Assembly (NCBI GenBank): GCA_938034905.1
Contig: CALHLF010000003.1
Coordinates: 1-64,000 of the forward strand
Length of the DNA: 64,000 bases
DNA from: an uncultured bacterium
Lineage (GTDB): Bacteria; Dictyoglomota; Dictyoglomia; Dictyoglomales; Dictyoglomaceae
Reading direction: 5' to 3'
Made by a program: the position numbers and the translations under genes. The notes beneath the pieces are model-generated. The model ran no database searches. It saw only the letters and a list, made by a program, of their open reading frames with translations, and was not told the origin of the DNA. The first letter of the stretch is position 1; the number at the start of each line of letters is the position of its first letter. Positions 4,085-37,538 of this stretch are shown piece by piece.

Positions 4085-6598
4085 TTAAATATCTTTATAA
4101 ATTATTTTCCCGTTTTCAATATGTATGCAATAGTCGAAAAACTCTTCTCTAAGGAGCACATGGGTTATTACAAATATTTGGTCAAAATGTTCTGCAATTT
4201 CTCCATGGGTAAGGAGTTCTATTAAAGCGTGAGCCCTTTCTTCATCAAAGGATCCTAAGGGTTCATCTAAGAAAATAAATCCTGGATTTGTTCCCTTATC
4301 TTGAGGTAGGTTTGCTATTGCAAAAGCTAATCTTAAGGCTAAGGAAAATTGGTCTTGGGTTCCTCCACTTAGTATTTCTTTATCATAATATTTATTAGTT
4401 ATATTATCGTAGACCTTTAACCTGAATTTATCAGCATCAAGATGGACCACATGATATCTATCCATGGTAAGAATGGGAAGAATTTTTTGCATATATGCTA
4501 AAGTTCTAGGAGATACAGTATCTAATATTTTTTTAACACTACCATCTAAAATTTGTTGAGCATAAGACATTTTTATTTTTTCTTTTAGCATCTTATTAAT
4601 ATTTTCCTCTTCCTTATCAGGATCTAAATCTTCAATTTTTCTTCCAACATTTTTTTCGTATCTTTCCATGATGAATTTTATTCTTGATAACTCTTCGCTA
4701 ACTTCTCTTTCTCTCCTTTCTAAATCTTCCTTTACTTTATAGTCTATTTCTTTCTCAGATAACTCTTCCCAATTTTTTTCAGGATAATTGTCTTTAAATT
4801 CTCTAATAAACTCTTCTAAATTCTCTATTCTTGCTTTTTTCTCTCCATTTTTTTGATCAAGAAGTTTTCTATAATATTCAAATTTTTCTTCAACCTTTTC
4901 CTCTTTAAGATCTTTTATAATTTTTTCTAATTGTTCTTTATATTCTTTCGATGGTCCTTTCATGAGCATCTTTGAAAGATTTTCAGCTTCTTCTTGAATT
5001 ATTTTTACTTCATTTTCAATCTTTATAATTTCACCCTTATTTTTTTCTACCTCTAAGGAAAGATTTTTGAGATTTTCTACTCTTTCTTCTAATTTACTTT
5101 CTTCCCTATTTAAACTTTCTAAGTCCTTCTCAGGATATTTATCTAAAATTTTAAGTTTACCAAAAACACTTTTCCATTGAGTTTCTTTTTTCTTTTTAAA
5201 TTCTTCCAATTCAAATATTTTTTCCTGTATTTTTTTCAAATTTTCTTTTAGGGAGATTGGTGTTATTATTTTAACTTCTTTTTCAATATCTTCTTTTCTT
5301 ATGCTTAATCTTATCTTTTCTTCTTTTATCTTATTTCTTCTTAGGAAAAGAAGAATTGATGCCACTATAAATATGAAAGATAGAGGCAAAAAGAAGATTT
5401 CAATTAATAAGGAGGAAAGGAGAAAGATTATTGAAAATGATAAATAAGAAACAATTTTAATTGTGTAATTTTTCAATTTTATATTAATTTTTCCTATATC
5501 TTCTTCATATTTATTTAAATCTTCAAATTTTTGGAGAAGGAAAAGATAAGAATTCTTTTCATTTATAAGATTCTCTAAGTTTTCATCTATTCTCGCCAAT
5601 TTATCTCTAATCTTCATTATTTTCTCTATTCTTTTCTTTATCTTTATAAGATATTTCAAATTATTTATCTCTTCTTCTAATCTTGGAATTTCTCTTATTT
5701 TGGCAAGATCTTGATTTATCTTATTTTCAATCTTTTCTTTGGCTTCTATCTTTTCTAATATTCTTTTCTTAAGCTCAAAGATTTTTTCTAATTTATCAAG
5801 TTCTTCACGATTTTTTCGAAGAGTCTCTACCTTTTCTTTATATCCCTCAACAATTTTAAATAGTCTTTCTATTTCTTTATCTATATTGTCTATACCCTCT
5901 TTTTCTTCTTTTATCTTTTTAGCCTTCTCTATAGCTTCTATTTCCATCTTCTCTTTTCTAATTTTTGAGAATTCTTCATTAAGAATGGGATATCTTCTTT
6001 TTGCACTACAGGCTTCCCTTATTATCTCACCAAGTGATAATTCTTTTTCTAAAGCGTTCTCCTCTTCCTTCGCCCTTTTTGAAAGATCTGTTAAAGATTC
6101 AAGATTAAATAGGGAAGTAATAATTTTTTGTCTGTCTTTCTTATCACTTTCCTCTAGCCTTCCAATATTTTTCTGTGCCACAAAACATGTATTAATAAGG
6201 GTATTATAGTCTAATCCTAATTCTTTTTCTATTCTTTTATTGGCATCATTAATTTTTCTGATAATAACAGGTTTTTCAGGATTTTTCTTACTATATATTT
6301 TTAATAAACATTCCTGAGATGAATTTCTCTTTAAAGTTCTTTCTATATAAATTTCCTTATCTTCTAAATCTATATTTAGAATTATTCTTGCTTTATCTTG
6401 GGAGAAGCTAATAAGATTTTCGTTGCTCTTTATATAAACGGCTTTTCCAAAAAGTGCAAAGACTATAGCTTCAAATAGGCTACTTTTTCCTGCTTCATTT
6501 TTCCCCTTTATTAGGAATCTACCTTGAGGTGGAAATTCTAATTTTTCATGTTCATATCTTTTAAAATTGAAAACTTCTAAACTTTTTAACCGGATCAT
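4085..6598 (-). CDS. Rad50/SbcC-like ATPase with membrane hairpin
   Basis: An SMC-like ATPase of 837 residues, the partner of the Mre11-type nuclease encoded just upstream, with a role in DNA-end processing. Walker A is KGKNEAGKSS (31-40), the ABC signature LSGGTQDQ (743-750) and Walker B FIFLDEP (774-780). Two long coiled-coil arms (about 170-380 and 425-670) separate the ATPase halves. Where Rad50 normally carries a CXXC zinc hook there is none; instead residues about 380-419 are strongly hydrophobic, consistent with two membrane-spanning helices. This resembles the Bacillus YhaN type as I remember it. The ATG overlaps the mre11 stop (ATGA), showing translational coupling. Membrane anchoring is inferred. 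Confidence 0.88.
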   Translation of the reverse strand: MIRLKSLEVFNFKRYEHEKLEFPPQGRFLIKGKNEAGKSSLFEAIVFALFGKAVYIKSNENLISFSQDKARIILNIDLEDKEIYIERTLKRNSSQECLLKIYSKKNPEKPVIIRKINDANKRIEKELGLDYNTLINTCFVAQKNIGRLEESDKKDRQKIITSLFNLESLTDLSKRAKEEENALEKELSLGEIIREACSAKRRYPILNEEFSKIRKEKMEIEAIEKAKKIKEEKEGIDNIDKEIERLFKIVEGYKEKVETLRKNREELDKLEKIFELKKRILEKIEAKEKIENKINQDLAKIREIPRLEEEINNLKYLIKIKKRIEKIMKIRDKLARIDENLENLINEKNSYLFLLQKFEDLNKYEEDIGKINIKLKNYTIKIVSYLSFSIIFLLSSLLIEIFFLPLSFIFIVASILLFLRRNKIKEEKIRLSIRKEDIEKEVKIITPISLKENLKKIQEKIFELEEFKKKKETQWKSVFGKLKILDKYPEKDLESLNREESKLEERVENLKNLSLEVEKNKGEIIKIENEVKIIQEEAENLSKMLMKGPSKEYKEQLEKIIKDLKEEKVEEKFEYYRKLLDQKNGEKKARIENLEEFIREFKDNYPEKNWEELSEKEIDYKVKEDLERREREVSEELSRIKFIMERYEKNVGRKIEDLDPDKEEENINKMLKEKIKMSYAQQILDGSVKKILDTVSPRTLAYMQKILPILTMDRYHVVHLDADKFRLKVYDNITNKYYDKEILSGGTQDQFSLALRLAFAIANLPQDKGTNPGFIFLDEPLGSFDEERAHALIELLTHGEIAEHFDQIFVITHVLLREEFFDYCIHIENGKIIYKDI

Positions 6599-7764
6599 AA
6601 TAATCCTCTAAGATTTTCCTTTATCCAATCAAGGGCTTCCTTTATTATTTCTTTGTCTTTTTCTTCTTTTATACACAATTCCTCAGTAAAATTTTCCAAG
6701 ACTTTTCCTATACTCCAATTTTCAGGAATAGAAATAGTAGAAATTTCTTCTGCTGAGATTATTAGATTCTGAGTATCAAGATCGAAGAAGAAATTCCATT
6801 GGTTTCCTATCTCATTTATCTTATTAAAGCTTATTTTTTGATAAGTACTCATGGAAATAGGTCCAACAATCTTACATTTTAATAACTGATCTTTATGAGA
6901 TTCTTTTTCTATTATTGATAAAATACTTTCCATGGGATTCTCATAAGAAATTTCTCCTGTCCTAATCTCTATAGATTTCATAGGTTGGGAATTAACTTTT
7001 ATATATTCTGGAAAAACTTTTCTTCCTTCTAATCTAATAAAATAAAAACCTGTCTCATTTTTCTCTTCTCCAAAATTTACTTTTTCTGTAGCTCCCGGTA
7101 TAATTAACATTTTTTTTCCAAAGATAAAATCTTTATGCTCATGAAGATGACCGATGATGAAAAGATCAAAGGGAAGAGAATACAAAGTTTCCTCTAAGAT
7201 TTGAGGTTCTTGAGCTTTAGGATGGGCAAATTTTTCTACAGAATAATGAAGTAGAAAAATCTTAAGTAAACTATTTTCCTCGTTAATATTTATTTTTATG
7301 TTGAAGAGAGGATCTACTCTTCCCTTGATTCTTAGATCCGTTGATAGTCCTGAGATTAATAATTTTTCTCCATTATTTCCTTCCCAAATATAAGGTTCTA
7401 TCTCTCTTGTTTTTGTAAAAGCCTTTAAGATTCCAGCCTTTTCAAAAATTTTAATGGGAAAGGAGTCTTCATCGGGGGCAGTTATGGAATCGTGGGTTCC
7501 TGCTACTGCAAATATACTTATCCCTGCTTTTTTAAGATTTAAAAACTCTTCCATAATAAAGGCAAGCTCAGTATTTCTTGGATCAGGCATATCAAAAAGG
7601 TCTCCTACCTGTATAAATAGATCAATCTTTTCCTTAATGGAGAAATCTACAACCTCTTTAAAGGCTTTTCTTAAATTCTCTCTTCTTTTTCTTAATTGCT
7701 CTGGAAACATTTTTTTATAAAATCTATTTAAATGATTATCTGCAGTGGCAACAATCTTTATCAT
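6595..7764 (-). CDS. Mre11/SbcD-like DNA nuclease
   Basis: Metallophosphoesterase-fold nuclease of 389 residues expected to work with the Rad50-like ATPase on DNA ends. Motif I is TADNHL (D9, H11), motif II QVGDLFD (D55), motif III AGTHDS (H91, D92), followed by LLHYS and FIIGHLHEH. The usual GNHD of motif III reads GTHD, so a normally conserved metal-binding asparagine is threonine. The C-terminal part (about 260-389) is the capping and partner-binding region. The gene sits between herA and rad50 with no gap (herA stop adjoins the ATG, its own stop overlaps the rad50 ATG). It may be closer to YhaO than to classical SbcD. Confidence 0.87.
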   Translation of the reverse strand: MIKIVATADNHLNRFYKKMFPEQLRKRRENLRKAFKEVVDFSIKEKIDLFIQVGDLFDMPDPRNTELAFIMEEFLNLKKAGISIFAVAGTHDSITAPDEDSFPIKIFEKAGILKAFTKTREIEPYIWEGNNGEKLLISGLSTDLRIKGRVDPLFNIKININEENSLLKIFLLHYSVEKFAHPKAQEPQILEETLYSLPFDLFIIGHLHEHKDFIFGKKMLIIPGATEKVNFGEEKNETGFYFIRLEGRKVFPEYIKVNSQPMKSIEIRTGEISYENPMESILSIIEKESHKDQLLKCKIVGPISMSTYQKISFNKINEIGNQWNFFFDLDTQNLIISAEEISTISIPENWSIGKVLENFTEELCIKEEKDKEIIKEALDWIKENLRGLL

Positions 7765-9429
7765 TTAAATTTCACTCTCCATTTCCTCGGTAGGAATAAA
7801 GGGTTCGTCAGAAATTAGAGCATCTCTTCTTGCCTTCTCAAATTCCTTTTCTAAATCTATATCATATCCTCCTTCTGCTGTCTCTCTATTTCCGATTTTT
7901 ACAATCACAGGAACCCTTGTGAGATTTCCTACAATAATTGCTTCTCCTATATTTAATCCCGGAAGATCCCTAAAAAGGCTTTCAGATAAAGCCTCTGATG
8001 CTTCCTTTACTGCGTTTTGGTCATTGGGATTTGTAAGTTTCATTATTATTTGACTTCCGCATTGGGAAAGAGTATTACTACTGATCTTATATGGTCTCTG
8101 GGTGATAACAATGAGAAAAATCTTAAATTTTCTACCTTCCGAAGCTATTGTATTAATTAATTTTGCGCTTTTTCCCCTACTTTCTCTATCATTAGGGACA
8201 AAGTTATGGGCTTCCTCTAATACTATAAATAAAGGATATCTTAGGCCTTCCGACTTTGCCTTCATCCATATTTCATTTAGTAAATGACTTACAATAAGGT
8301 CCATCAAATTTTTTTCTAAACCTGCCAAATCTACAACGGTAATATGAGAGGGCTTTAAGATTTTTTCTAATTTAATATCTTCAAAACCCCAAATGGGATA
8401 GTCCTTAATCCATCTAACATATTTTAAGGCTTTTCTTGCGCCATTTACTAAATCTTCATTAATCTTTGTCCTTTTCTGATGTCTTTTTGCCGTTTCAATT
8501 TCATAATTTTCGAAGGGAATAGGCTTTTCTTCTTCATTTATATCTCCTGTAAATTGAGATAATTTTTCATATAAATCTTCTGGGGTAAAATCTCTTCCTT
8601 CCTTTTTCAATTCTTGTAGGGCATGTTCTATAGAATTTCTAATATTTGTCATTTTTTCATCAATCCCTAAAATTTCAAGAATCTGTTCATCTTCTAACTC
8701 GCTAAATTTTATAGAAAATTTTTCGATACCTCCTATCTCTACCTCTGAAAATCTTGTGGGAATTTCTGGAATTCTATATATAGTTACCATTTCTGCAATA
8801 GAAGAAAATCCCTTTAAATTACTGGTTCTTCTTAAAAGGACATAATCACTATTAGGATCAAAGACTAAGATTGTTGCACCTAATTTTACTAATTTTTCTA
8901 TTAGAAGTCCTGCTAAATAAGATTTTCCTGCTCCTGTTTGGGCAATAATTGCAAGATGCCTTCTTAAACCATTTGGATCTAAAGTAACTTTGACATTAGG
9001 TCTATAAAGAAGGGTGCCTATTTCAATGGAATTATTTTTTACATGGCCAAAGAATCTTTGAAGAAGGAAGTCAGAAGCCAAGAAAACCGGAGAGCCAGGA
9101 AGAGCTACAGATCTTGGAAATTGTATTTTATTATTTTTGTCTAAATATCCTAATACCCTTGCCTCTGCTATAAGATGAGTAGGTATAGCATAGTTTAAAC
9201 CTAAAATCTTGTTTGTTGCTTCATATTCTTGATCCTCGTTTAAAACCTCAGAGAAGGCTCTTAAGGATTCAACTTGAGCTAATACCTCTACTTCTTCCTC
9301 AGGGGTTGCTATTCCTTTTATTGTTACATACTCTAATCTTTTTGGAGCTAATTCCCTTGTAGTCACGAACTGAAATCTATCACAAAAACTTTCTCCTACC
9401 AAATATCCTACACATTTTTCTTCTTTCAT
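7765..9429 (-). CDS. herA: HerA-type DNA translocase/helicase
   Basis: A hexameric FtsK/HerA-superfamily ATPase that drives DNA through the NurA nuclease during end resection. The N-terminal HAS-barrel (about 1-130) is followed by Walker A AQTGAGKSY (163-171), Walker B FIVLEEAHNF (401-410), and the sensor-like ITQRP (442-446). Length 554 matches archaeal and Thermus HerA. Its ATG overlaps the nurA stop by one base, and mre11 starts directly after it. The four genes nurA, herA, mre11 and rad50 form the combination familiar from archaea, here in a bacterial genome. Confidence 0.92.
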   Translation of the reverse strand: MKEEKCVGYLVGESFCDRFQFVTTRELAPKRLEYVTIKGIATPEEEVEVLAQVESLRAFSEVLNEDQEYEATNKILGLNYAIPTHLIAEARVLGYLDKNNKIQFPRSVALPGSPVFLASDFLLQRFFGHVKNNSIEIGTLLYRPNVKVTLDPNGLRRHLAIIAQTGAGKSYLAGLLIEKLVKLGATILVFDPNSDYVLLRRTSNLKGFSSIAEMVTIYRIPEIPTRFSEVEIGGIEKFSIKFSELEDEQILEILGIDEKMTNIRNSIEHALQELKKEGRDFTPEDLYEKLSQFTGDINEEEKPIPFENYEIETAKRHQKRTKINEDLVNGARKALKYVRWIKDYPIWGFEDIKLEKILKPSHITVVDLAGLEKNLMDLIVSHLLNEIWMKAKSEGLRYPLFIVLEEAHNFVPNDRESRGKSAKLINTIASEGRKFKIFLIVITQRPYKISSNTLSQCGSQIIMKLTNPNDQNAVKEASEALSESLFRDLPGLNIGEAIIVGNLTRVPVIVKIGNRETAEGGYDIDLEKEFEKARRDALISDEPFIPTEEMESEI

Positions 9430-10529
9430 TAAAAGAACCTCCTCTGACTCCTATCTAAGGGCAGTACTTTTCCCAATTCCCTTTCTAAAATAAATCTGTA
9501 TCTTTCCAAGTCTGGTTCTCTTTTTATTCTTACCAATTTATCCACAAGATAAAGATGAGTCTGGTATACATTAATTCCCGCACAATTATTTCTTATTAAT
9601 GAAATTATACTTTTAAGTTGTACTTGGGGTAAAATTTGATAATCAAGAGAAAGGAAGGAATCTTCCCTTCCTATAAGATAACAAGGAAAGTCAATTCTAA
9701 GGGGAGAATCATTAGGAATAAGCCTTAAATATAGATTAACAAAGGCAGAAATATTTTCAAGTTGTTCTTTTATTTGGGTTTTGGTCTCTATGATTTCCAT
9801 TTGTTTTTTTCCAAGGCTTCTTTTTCCTCCTAAAAGGATGGGAGTAGAAAATCCTGTTTTATGAGGGATGATGAGAGATATTAATTCTGTATCTGTAGGA
9901 TAATATTTAGATTTAATAATTGTTCCCTTAGATTCTGAAATTATTTGGGATAAAAATGTATCTCTACTTATCTTTGAAATTGAGATAAGATAAATTCCTT
10001 TCTCCTTAGATAAATTAATTAATCTTAAAGTTTTTTCAAGAACTTCAAGGGTAAGAGAATTATAATCTCCAAGATCCATTGATAGGAGATAAATTATATG
10101 AGAAATTCTTGAAGAAAGGGAACCATCTATAAAAAGAACGTAAGGAGGTTTCCCTTTTTCAAGAACCTTTAGAGCAAGATCCATCTCAACATTTTGAAGA
10201 ATTATATCTGAAATGTTTTCTAATTGATTTTGTGAGATAGAGCCTGGTAGAGCTTCTATGTTTACTTTCGCATCTTCATAGTTATCTCTTCCCAAGACTA
10301 AACCTTGGGAGATAATAATATAAGAACCAAAGGCAAGGGAAAGAATTCTTTGGGATGCATCTACCGCATAACTTGGGAGATTAAATTCTTCATCAGAGAA
10401 AGGATGCCAGTGGCTTTCAAAAAATCTTTCAAAGGATTCTTCTTTAATATAATCCCAGTTGAGAGAGGCTAACAATTTATCCTTTTTTCTCTTTATTTCC
10501 TCTAAAAATAATGAGATAAAGTCAGGCAT
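9429..10529 (-). CDS. nurA: NurA-family 5'-3' nuclease
   Basis: The 366-residue protein has NurA-domain motifs: SYAVDASQRIL near residues 53-63 with the first catalytic aspartate, and LFIDGSLSSR near 130-140 with the second. NurA degrades DNA ends in complex with HerA. Position immediately before herA, with overlapping stop and start codons, strongly supports the call. The C-terminal part contains the conserved aspartate region around YQTHLYLVDKLVRIK. Its start overlaps the end of the glycosyltransferase gene by 8 bases. Sequence similarity in this family is low, so context carries much of the weight. Confidence 0.85.
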   Translation of the reverse strand: MPDFISLFLEEIKRKKDKLLASLNWDYIKEESFERFFESHWHPFSDEEFNLPSYAVDASQRILSLAFGSYIIISQGLVLGRDNYEDAKVNIEALPGSISQNQLENISDIILQNVEMDLALKVLEKGKPPYVLFIDGSLSSRISHIIYLLSMDLGDYNSLTLEVLEKTLRLINLSKEKGIYLISISKISRDTFLSQIISESKGTIIKSKYYPTDTELISLIIPHKTGFSTPILLGGKRSLGKKQMEIIETKTQIKEQLENISAFVNLYLRLIPNDSPLRIDFPCYLIGREDSFLSLDYQILPQVQLKSIISLIRNNCAGINVYQTHLYLVDKLVRIKREPDLERYRFILERELGKVLPLDRSQRRFF

Positions 10530-34178: not shown

Positions 34179-37100
34179 TTACCTATTTTCTCTAAGTTCG
34201 TCTCTTAAATTTCTCAAGATTTCTTGATAATCTGCCTCATTTTTTTCTACCATATCCATTAATTTTTCTAATTCTCTTGTAAAATCCTCTTTTACAAACC
34301 TAAATCTCTCTTCATTTTTATTTAAATATTGATAGACTTTTTCTCCTAATGGAGTTGGGATTAGATATCCATTTCTCTCAATCACATATCCTCTTTCAAG
34401 TAATCTACTTACAATAGTTGCATAAGTAGATGGTCTTCCCAATCCTCTTCTTTTCATCTCTTCTACTAAAGAACCTTGAGTAAATAGAGGTGCTTTAGGT
34501 ATATTATAAAAAAACTTATTATTACTTACATCTATATTACCTTCTTCTACTTTTATAAGTTTTATTGGGAATATTTTATTAAACCCCTCTTGTATTATCT
34601 CTTCAAATAACTCTAATTTTAACTCTATGTCTAATGCTTTGACTAATGTATCATATCCTTTAAGTACCACATTCCTCATTTGAGAAGATATAAATCTTTT
34701 AAATATCAAGTCATAGATTAATAAATGCTCTTTTCTAAATCCTTCTAATTCTCCAGAGTATAGCATAGATTTAATATCCTCTACATCTAGAACTCTTGTA
34801 GGTCTTATACATTCATGGGCTCCACCTTCACCCCATGTCCTCGGTTTAAAAAATTCCTCTCCAAATTGTTCAATAATATATTCTCTTGCAATATTTATAC
34901 CACTTTCTGATACTCTTGTGGAATCAGTACGATGATAAGTTATAAAACCTCTTTCAAAAAGATCTTGTAGTATTTCCATAACTTTTGAAACAGGAATCTT
35001 ATATTTATCTGATGCATCTTTTAAGATAATATCAGTAGTATATGGGGATAATGGTGATTTTTCCACGATTTTTTCTCTTTCTTTTATCAACTGAATGCTT
35101 TTAAGATTATCAAAAAAATCTTTCCCTTGACTTTTATTTTCAAATTCAAATCTAAGCTCCAAACCGTTTTTTCTAATGAATATAAGAAAAATACGTTTAT
35201 TATGCTCTTTTGCTCTCTCAATTACCCAGCCTAAAACTGGAGTTTGTACCCTACCCGCAGAGAGATAATATTTTGAGAATATTCTTTGAATAAGTTGAGA
35301 AAGCTCAAATCCTACCCATCTATCAGATATCTTTCTTACAATTTGTGCTTTTACCAAATTATCATTTACATCTCTAAACTCTTTGAGGGAGTTTAATATG
35401 GCTTTCCTTGTTACTTCGTGAAATTCCATACGCTTAATTTCCTTTGTAAATGGAGCACAAATATTCTTTAAGTCCCAAGAAATTTTTTCACCCTCTGTAT
35501 CAGGATCAGTTGCTATAAGTATCTGTTCAAATTCCTTACTGGCATCTCTTATGGCAGAAACAATATTTTCTTTACCCTCTATTATTTCGTATACTGGAAT
35601 ATATTCTCCATCCTCTAAAACTCCAAAATAACCTATTTTTTTGTCCAAGTCTAAAATATGTCCAAAGGAAGCTGTAATTACAAGATATTTATCTTCGGTA
35701 ATAATTTCGTAAAATTCTTGTCCATTGATATATCTTGATATAGGTTTTCCAAAGAAATTAGCAATTGTTCTTGCTTTGTGAGGGGATTCTACTATAACAA
35801 GAACAGGTTTTAAAAACTCATCCTTTTTTCCTTCTTTTCTTTTAATTTTTTCTCTGTCTATATCAATTTCTTCTAGAATTTTATATATATCCACATCTTT
35901 AATATTTTTGAAAACGATATCTGAACTAAGCCACCATCTAGATTTTCTGATAAGATTATTAAATACTATCTTATCATCAACCAGAACATAACTTAGGCCC
36001 TTTGAAATACCTCCTACATAAAGTCTTGATGTTCTACCTGAAGCCTGGAGATATCCTGTGATATCTGAAACAACTAATGTCCACTTTCCATTTTCTTCTC
36101 TTATGCTAATATCGTTTGAAGCTTTTATTTTTTCATAAATCTCTGGAGAAAGAATAAAGTTTTTAATTGTATTTCTTAATTCCTCAAATCTTTCCTTTTG
36201 GTGATTAGTAGTTGATGAAAATTTATTTAAAATTTTAAGCCATTTATCTATATTATTTACATATTTTTCTAAACTTTTATCTCTTGCGATAACAACTCTT
36301 ATAGATGATAAAGCGATTAAAAGATGTTTAACATTGCTTTCTAAATCTAAATTTATTATGATTTTGGGCACACCGTAAAATATTGCATATCTAATTGTTT
36401 CTGGAAGATCAATCCCTCGTGCCAGGGGATTTCTATAAGATGATATGCCAATAAGTACATCTATTTTACCCTTCTTATAATCCTCTAATACCTCCTCAGT
36501 AAGATTAGAATAAGATTCTGCTAAAATTCCATTGGAGTTTAATAAATTTTTGATATACTCTACATGGTCTTTTCCAAAATCAGATGATAAAAATACAAGT
36601 CCACCCTTTCCAAATTTTCTAATCTTATCAACTAAAGAATTATCTAAGTTTGTTACTTCCTCGTAAACATCCTCTACATTTCTTAAGTAAAACACTGGTC
36701 TTCCTACATCAAAAGAGAGTAGTTCTTTAAATAAACGAATTCTTTCTGATTTAGGATCACTTGTTGCAGATGAGACTATCATAATTCCCTTTGCTTTTTT
36801 AGCTATATTTCTAATTTCTTCCTGCATTTTTCGAAAGTCATCAATACTATTCTCTGAAGAATTTCTTCTTTTTCTTATATATTTTAATGTAGTTTCAATA
36901 TCTTCCTGGGTGAATCCAAGAAGTAATAAGGCTTTATCAATATTTTTTGCAGTTTTTAGAAAGGAGTCTACATCATCTACAAATATAAAAGAAAAATCCC
37001 TTGGAATAATATCCACATTCTTGTAAAGAAACATAGAGGAAGTAATTAGTATCTTAAACTCACCATTTTTAAGCCTTTCTCTTTTTAACTCTTTTTCCTT

Positions 37101-37538
37101 TTTTGTCTCATCAAGTCCAAAGACTAAAAGATCATCCTCTTTTATTGCATCTTTAAGCTTTTCATAGCTTTGGAAAATTAACAACTTTGTTGGAAGAATA
37201 ATATAAGTTCTTTTATTTTCTTTCAAAAAATAAATAGCAGAAGCTAAACCAAAGGACGTTTTTCCTATGCCTGTTGGGGCAAGAAGAGCAAAAGATCTTC
37301 CCAATAAGAGCTTTCTTGCCCAAAATTTTTGTAATTCCCATGGCTCAAAACCAACAAAGTCCTTGAAGATTTTTTCCCATTCATGATATTTTCTTTTTAA
37401 AATATAAAATTCTTCTAATTCTTTTTGTAGAATTTTCTCTTCCGTACATCTTTCACAAGGAAGTCCTACAAGTAATCGTTCAGAAGATATTTCTCTACCA
37501 CAGTTAGGACATAAATCCTTAAAAATAGCTTTTATCAA
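34179..37538 (-). CDS. rgy: Reverse gyrase
   Basis: Reverse gyrase adds positive supercoils to DNA and is the hallmark enzyme of life at high temperature. The 1119 residues join a helicase-like half and a topoisomerase IA half. An N-terminal zinc finger (C10, C13, C28, C31) is followed by Walker A APTGIGKTS (87-95), the DDVD box (188-191) and helicase domain 2. The Toprim domain starts at VIVESPHKARTIANFFGKP (about 569-587) with DPDTEGE, and the catalytic tyrosine is Y868 in TYHRTDST. The second zinc finger found in many homologues is absent. Translation starts at TTG with GGAGGG upstream. It is a single-gene unit. Confidence 0.96.
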   Translation of the reverse strand: MIKAIFKDLCPNCGREISSERLLVGLPCERCTEEKILQKELEEFYILKRKYHEWEKIFKDFVGFEPWELQKFWARKLLLGRSFALLAPTGIGKTSFGLASAIYFLKENKRTYIILPTKLLIFQSYEKLKDAIKEDDLLVFGLDETKKEKELKRERLKNGEFKILITSSMFLYKNVDIIPRDFSFIFVDDVDSFLKTAKNIDKALLLLGFTQEDIETTLKYIRKRRNSSENSIDDFRKMQEEIRNIAKKAKGIMIVSSATSDPKSERIRLFKELLSFDVGRPVFYLRNVEDVYEEVTNLDNSLVDKIRKFGKGGLVFLSSDFGKDHVEYIKNLLNSNGILAESYSNLTEEVLEDYKKGKIDVLIGISSYRNPLARGIDLPETIRYAIFYGVPKIIINLDLESNVKHLLIALSSIRVVIARDKSLEKYVNNIDKWLKILNKFSSTTNHQKERFEELRNTIKNFILSPEIYEKIKASNDISIREENGKWTLVVSDITGYLQASGRTSRLYVGGISKGLSYVLVDDKIVFNNLIRKSRWWLSSDIVFKNIKDVDIYKILEEIDIDREKIKRKEGKKDEFLKPVLVIVESPHKARTIANFFGKPISRYINGQEFYEIITEDKYLVITASFGHILDLDKKIGYFGVLEDGEYIPVYEIIEGKENIVSAIRDASKEFEQILIATDPDTEGEKISWDLKNICAPFTKEIKRMEFHEVTRKAILNSLKEFRDVNDNLVKAQIVRKISDRWVGFELSQLIQRIFSKYYLSAGRVQTPVLGWVIERAKEHNKRIFLIFIRKNGLELRFEFENKSQGKDFFDNLKSIQLIKEREKIVEKSPLSPYTTDIILKDASDKYKIPVSKVMEILQDLFERGFITYHRTDSTRVSESGINIAREYIIEQFGEEFFKPRTWGEGGAHECIRPTRVLDVEDIKSMLYSGELEGFRKEHLLIYDLIFKRFISSQMRNVVLKGYDTLVKALDIELKLELFEEIIQEGFNKIFPIKLIKVEEGNIDVSNNKFFYNIPKAPLFTQGSLVEEMKRRGLGRPSTYATIVSRLLERGYVIERNGYLIPTPLGEKVYQYLNKNEERFRFVKEDFTRELEKLMDMVEKNEADYQEILRNLRDELRENR

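Follow-up and report, generated by a model that had tools for sequence, protein, structure and literature searches.

The locus and its genes

The window, i.e., the whole stretch of 64,000 nucleotides that was analyzed, contains a block of four co-oriented genes, nurA, herA, mre11 and rad50, whose ends overlap or abut (9429/9429, 7765/7764 and 6595/6598). The genes of this block and the features recognized in their products are as follows, all on the minus strand.

4085..6598, minus: Rad50/SbcC-like ATPase of the predicted membrane-apex (YhaN-like) type, no CxxC, 837 aa, ATG start
4262..4279, minus: Walker B motif FIFLDE, residues 774-779 (FIFLDEP, 774-780)
4355..4369, minus: ABC signature SGGTQ, residues 744-748
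5336..5461, minus: apex hydrophobic hairpin at the zinc-hook position, residues about 380-421 (hydropathy and AlphaFold2)
5390..5404, minus: apex turn, residues 399-403 (AlphaFold2)
6482..6505, minus: Walker A motif GKNEAGKS, residues 32-39, near-invariant in the A1 alignment
6595..7764, minus: Mre11/SbcD-like nuclease subunit, 389 aa, 4-bp overlap with rad50
7489..7500, minus: Mre11 motif III, GTHD where GNHD is expected, residues 89-92
7765..9429, minus: HerA hexameric translocase, 554 aa (Pfam DUF87, 3e-39; NCBIfam HerA, 5e-65)
9429..10529, minus: NurA nuclease, 366 aa (Pfam NurA, 1.2e-9)

The rad50 gene, whose co-oriented neighbors comprise a glycosyltransferase gene in addition to those of Mre11, HerA and NurA, encodes a protein with intact ABC head motifs (Walker A, signature and Walker B) distributed over its two ends, in agreement with an initial sequence-only reading that had proposed a Rad50 homologue with normal ATPase motifs at 4085-6598. 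The protein matches the Pfam families AAA_23 (6e-16), AAA_27 (4e-8, above cut-off) and SbcC_Walker_B (5.6e-6), together with the NCBIfam Rad50 models, of which the best reaches 4e-24 and all stay far under their equivalog cut-offs. The nearest solved chain by sequence is that of Thermotoga maritima Rad50 (7e-19), and a Foldseek search with the predicted model retrieved SMC, Rad50, MukB and Jet proteins. When the protein was used as the query against the named genomes, a single match was obtained, at locus L036, to a hook-type protein; as for phages, the best matches span about 20% of the query and fall in the N-terminal head.

The four-gene block also occurs at L021, L022, L023 and L025, which represent the genus of the window and its sister genus. 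A search of the window's genome with the SbcC model found no second full-length Rad50, only head matches in SMC- or RecN-like frames. AddA matches in the window's family were confined to frames of roughly 630-660 aa, all below the cut-off, and RecJ is present. The promoter and terminator scans gave sites no more frequent than those in shuffles. The GTHD form of Mre11 motif III is found in all three species of the window's genus, and GNHD in the sister genus; the same N-to-T replacement at this metal-ligand position recurs at L067, L076, L078 and L142. Elsewhere in the window, a reverse gyrase gene (34179-37538, minus strand, 1119 aa, TTG start, 1270 bits with TIGR01054) points to a strong thermophile.

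The apex of the coiled coil

The zinc hook joins two Rad50 arms; it is commonly taken to define Rad50 and to be required for this joining. The CxxC motif was sought over the whole window protein and is absent, and Kyte-Doolittle analysis with 19-residue windows marks two segments, 382-400 (2.0) and 401-419 (2.83), so that the range first suggested for a hydrophobic double segment without CXXC, about residues 380-419, was accurate. The best sum at the apex is -18.2 kcal/mol on the Wimley-White octanol scale and -3.0 on the Hessa scale, and charged residues account for 9% of the stretch 379-421 versus about 50% of each coiled-coil arm. The AlphaFold2 model of the protein (mean pLDDT of 82.5) consists at this point of a helix (304-398), a turn (399-403) and a second helix (404-442), with a pLDDT of 80-89 over the block; structure prediction, which had been proposed as a check of the sequence-only reading, thus returns a helix-turn-helix at the coiled-coil tip. 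On the basis of the three hydropathy scales (Kyte-Doolittle, octanol and Hessa) and of the charge of the flanks, the apex is predicted to insert into the cytoplasmic membrane. Compared with a protein of the same genus (L021, 6232-9027), the window Rad50 is 94 aa shorter, with deletions in both coiled-coil arms that leave the hairpin still at the apex.

Hairpin and zinc hook among the relatives

Two other species of the genus have the window rad50 gene as well, and the sister genus has full copies in two species along with two partial copies that run into contig ends. All the full copies of the two genera, which range from 837 to 983 aa, encode a hydrophobic apex and no CxxC. Further relatives, read together with their neighboring genes, came from a sample of 386 genomes that was searched both with a head profile and with AAA_27. 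The 45 near-complete proteins divide into 26 with a mid-length hydrophobic segment but no CxxC there, 15 with a mid-length CxxC but without such a segment, and four with neither; none combines the two. In the enlarged set, 29 Rad50-like proteins (600-1363 aa) encoded beside Mre11-like genes carry a mid-length hydrophobic segment or hairpin and no CxxC there, and 17 other proteins carry a mid-length CxxC and no hydrophobic segment. The zinc hook and the hydrophobic apex are therefore mutually exclusive across the sampled proteins. Realignment of the window protein with its true relatives brings out no hook motif, and it is at this mid-point that the real hook proteins have their CxxC.

As a fraction of the protein length, the position of the hydrophobic apex is 0.48 +/- 0.026 (26 proteins, 600-1245 aa) and that of the hook, in the proteins that have one, is 0.501 +/- 0.005, while the lengths of the two arms covary in the 26 membrane-apex proteins (r = 0.89, a value whose independence is overstated, since it comes from related sequences). 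The matching mid-length positions and the covarying arms indicate that the hairpin occupies the place of the hook. Furthermore, the 15-residue flanks of the apex have a K+R to D+E ratio of 160:90 versus 3779:4174 for the whole proteins (Fisher p = 1e-7, with independence again overstated for the same reason, as it is for the counts above and the trees below); such K/R-rich flanks agree with the positive-inside rule for a hairpin whose two ends are cytoplasmic. In several relatives, e.g., at L025, L027, L064, L066, L132 and L133, only one segment rises above the Kyte-Doolittle threshold.

An Mre11-like gene adjoins the membrane-apex rad50 in 26 cases out of 26, and some membrane-apex pairs are plasmid-borne. 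The Mre11 partners of four membrane-apex Rad50s (L069, 4372-5550; L077, 7988-9124; L132, 6906-8237; L138, 4324-5667) have degenerate active sites, in which several catalytic residues are lost, and to judge from their sequences these four may be pseudonucleases. Nuclease function would then not be universal in the membrane-apex class.

Phylogeny of the membrane-apex proteins

An unrooted tree was compatible with either direction of the apex swap, and a tree of the heads rooted with SMC proteins was used instead. Here, the 29 membrane-apex proteins and five proteins with neither feature form one clade of 34 rows (99/95), apart from the hook proteins, which were sampled partly by similarity to the window Rad50; what the SMC outgroup resolves is the membrane clade, not how the hook lineages branch at the root. 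The window protein belongs to an early branch of this clade, made of 11 rows (98/89), with members of f16 (a phylum), f86, f206 and f120, and the named members of the clade include Listeria monocytogenes, Deinococcus actinosclerus and the haloarchaeon Natrinema zhouii. The tree of the Mre11 partners parallels that of Rad50, as the partner from the window groups with those of f86 and f16 (100/100). The simplest reading of these trees would be one change between the hook and the membrane apex, followed by two losses of the hairpin.

One group of YhaN proteins of about 1150-1185 aa (L122, 2692-6183; L123, 2634-6185; L125, 5522-9019; L195, 2751-6215) has neither a hook nor a hydrophobic apex, and the hairpin was probably lost in this group because it is nested inside the membrane clade. 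One of its members is from Methylomonas, and the gene at L195 is located on a plasmid, near the BREX gene brxL.

Comparison with known systems

SbcEF/YhaNO is a known pair whose role in break repair is poorly characterized.PMC6452273 YhaN/SbcE, which is accompanied by YhaO/SbcF in Bacillales and corresponds to AAA_27, resembles the window Rad50 in having a hydrophobic hairpin in the middle of the protein instead of the hook and an Mre11-like gene directly upstream, and the two belong to the same clade. The likeness to Bacillus YhaN that had been proposed at the outset was borne out in Listeria monocytogenes, whose YhaN-type protein (L192, 4138-6861, 907 aa) has a hairpin at 431-470, no CxxC and a YhaO-like exonuclease gene just upstream; membership of the YhaN clade was judged through this protein, the B. 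subtilis genome being represented here by its AAA_27 match only. The window Rad50 differs from YhaN/SbcE in its deeply separate branch, in its head, which scores better with AAA_23 and the Rad50 models than with AAA_27, and in its status as the sole detected Rad50 of the genome, encoded in an operon with HerA and NurA.

With the zinc-hook Rad50/SbcC proteins of archaea and bacteria, the window protein shares the ATPase heads, the coiled-coil arms and an Mre11 partner encoded alongside, whereas it lacks the CxxC and has a hydrophobic hairpin in the same place. Its four-gene operon is that of the NurA-HerA-Mre11-Rad50 operons of thermophilic archaea, in which Mre11 interacts with both Rad50 and HerA.PMC2288612 The same four genes occur in the bacterial families f95 and f98, where a NurA match lies close to HerA-Mre11-Rad50; unlike that of the window, the Rad50s of these operons have a CxxC and no hydrophobic segment. 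NurA is borne by 35 of the 386 genomes, and the loci outside the window's family that were read with NurA and HerA-Mre11-Rad50 encode hook Rad50s (L168, L169 and L171); a check of membrane-apex genomes from other families detected no NurA. At L182 (4694-7795), a 1033-aa Rad50-like protein encoded near a NurA gene has neither a CxxC nor a hydrophobic segment.

Proposed function and alternative explanations

The window protein is probably the ATPase subunit of a membrane-apex Mre11-Rad50 complex of the YhaN/SbcE-like clade, anchored in the membrane by its apex and processing DNA ends together with HerA and NurA. The two antiparallel coiled-coil arms would end, in the stead of the hook, in a transmembrane helical hairpin with both termini in the cytoplasm and a very short outside turn, and this hairpin would anchor the apex in the cytoplasmic membrane. 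The hairpins of two protomers, side by side, would probably also hold both arms together, as the hook does. With arms of 192 helical residues, at 0.148 nm each, the heads and Mre11 would reach about 28 nm into the cytoplasm and clamp DNA ends there, and these ends would then be passed on for resection to HerA and NurA, the products of the neighboring operon genes. We infer membrane insertion, dimerization through the hairpins, physical coupling to HerA-NurA and resection of ends near the membrane; joint action of HerA-NurA with this Mre11-Rad50 is suggested by the operon structure and by the archaeal precedent.

A membrane position would also fit an envelope guard that acts against entering DNA, from phages or transformation, in the manner of SMC-type defense ATPases rather than in general repair. 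In a PADLOC search, the window Rad50 matches the models of LmuB (1.2e-23), the Lamassu protein with which it shares an SMC/Rad50-like head, and HerA matches defense HerA models, while neither Mre11 nor NurA has a match; the plasmid location of some membrane-apex pairs points the same way as the LmuB and HerA matches. However, the locus differs from Lamassu in that the partners are Mre11, HerA and NurA, no LmuA or LmuC gene was recognized beside the ATPase and no other defense genes were recognized nearby. The conservation of the four-gene block across two genera, in a genome with no other detected Rad50, argues for a core function and makes a guard role unlikely.

The hairpin could instead be a soluble dimerization element, with those of two protomers forming a four-helix bundle that replaces zinc and does not enter the membrane. 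The exact location of the apex at the point where Rad50 dimerizes by its zinc hook speaks for such a bundle, as does the shortness of the almost loopless hairpin. Against this stand the octanol sum of -18 kcal/mol for the two runs, each about 19 residues long, the K/R-enriched flanks and the fact that the relatives conserve hydrophobicity and length at the apex rather than a visible packing pattern. In addition, the best 38-residue segment of the window Rad50 (2.42) ranks first among all the retained ORFs of the window, above any segment of its multi-pass membrane proteins, the runner-up (2.30) being from a protein with six such segments; a soluble bundle is accordingly considered improbable. 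An artefact of gene prediction or assembly, i.e., a soluble Rad50 in which a hydrophobic stretch arose by chance, is effectively ruled out by the open frame, by the presence of a hydrophobic apex in all close relatives whose sequence extends over the region and by the protein shuffles, none of which, out of 2000, equals the best 40-mer (2.31; shuffle maximum, 1.90).

Significance of the apex swap

A tethering of this kind had been held to be notable from the outset, and this stands for the pairing with HerA-NurA and for the status of the protein as the only detected Rad50, while the hairpin itself turns out to be widespread in bacteria. What is special here is therefore this pairing in a genome with a sole detected Rad50, along with a swap of the apex that is clade-wide. 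In the open-access literature, no paper was found on a membrane hairpin or a membrane apex in Rad50, SbcC or YhaN. It is conceivable, as a more tentative proposal, that a major clade of Mre11-Rad50 swapped the zinc hook for a transmembrane hairpin once, making end processing membrane-tethered in many bacteria, and that in the lineage described here the tethered form fully replaced the soluble one and was coupled to HerA-NurA to serve as the main resection machinery.

The clade-wide and mutually exclusive swap represents a natural experiment on the purpose of the apex, be it tethering, clamping or localization. The exchange for a membrane hairpin predicts that DNA ends would be processed at the membrane in many bacteria, and the topology of the apex offers a direct and testable handle on the role of SbcEF in break repair.
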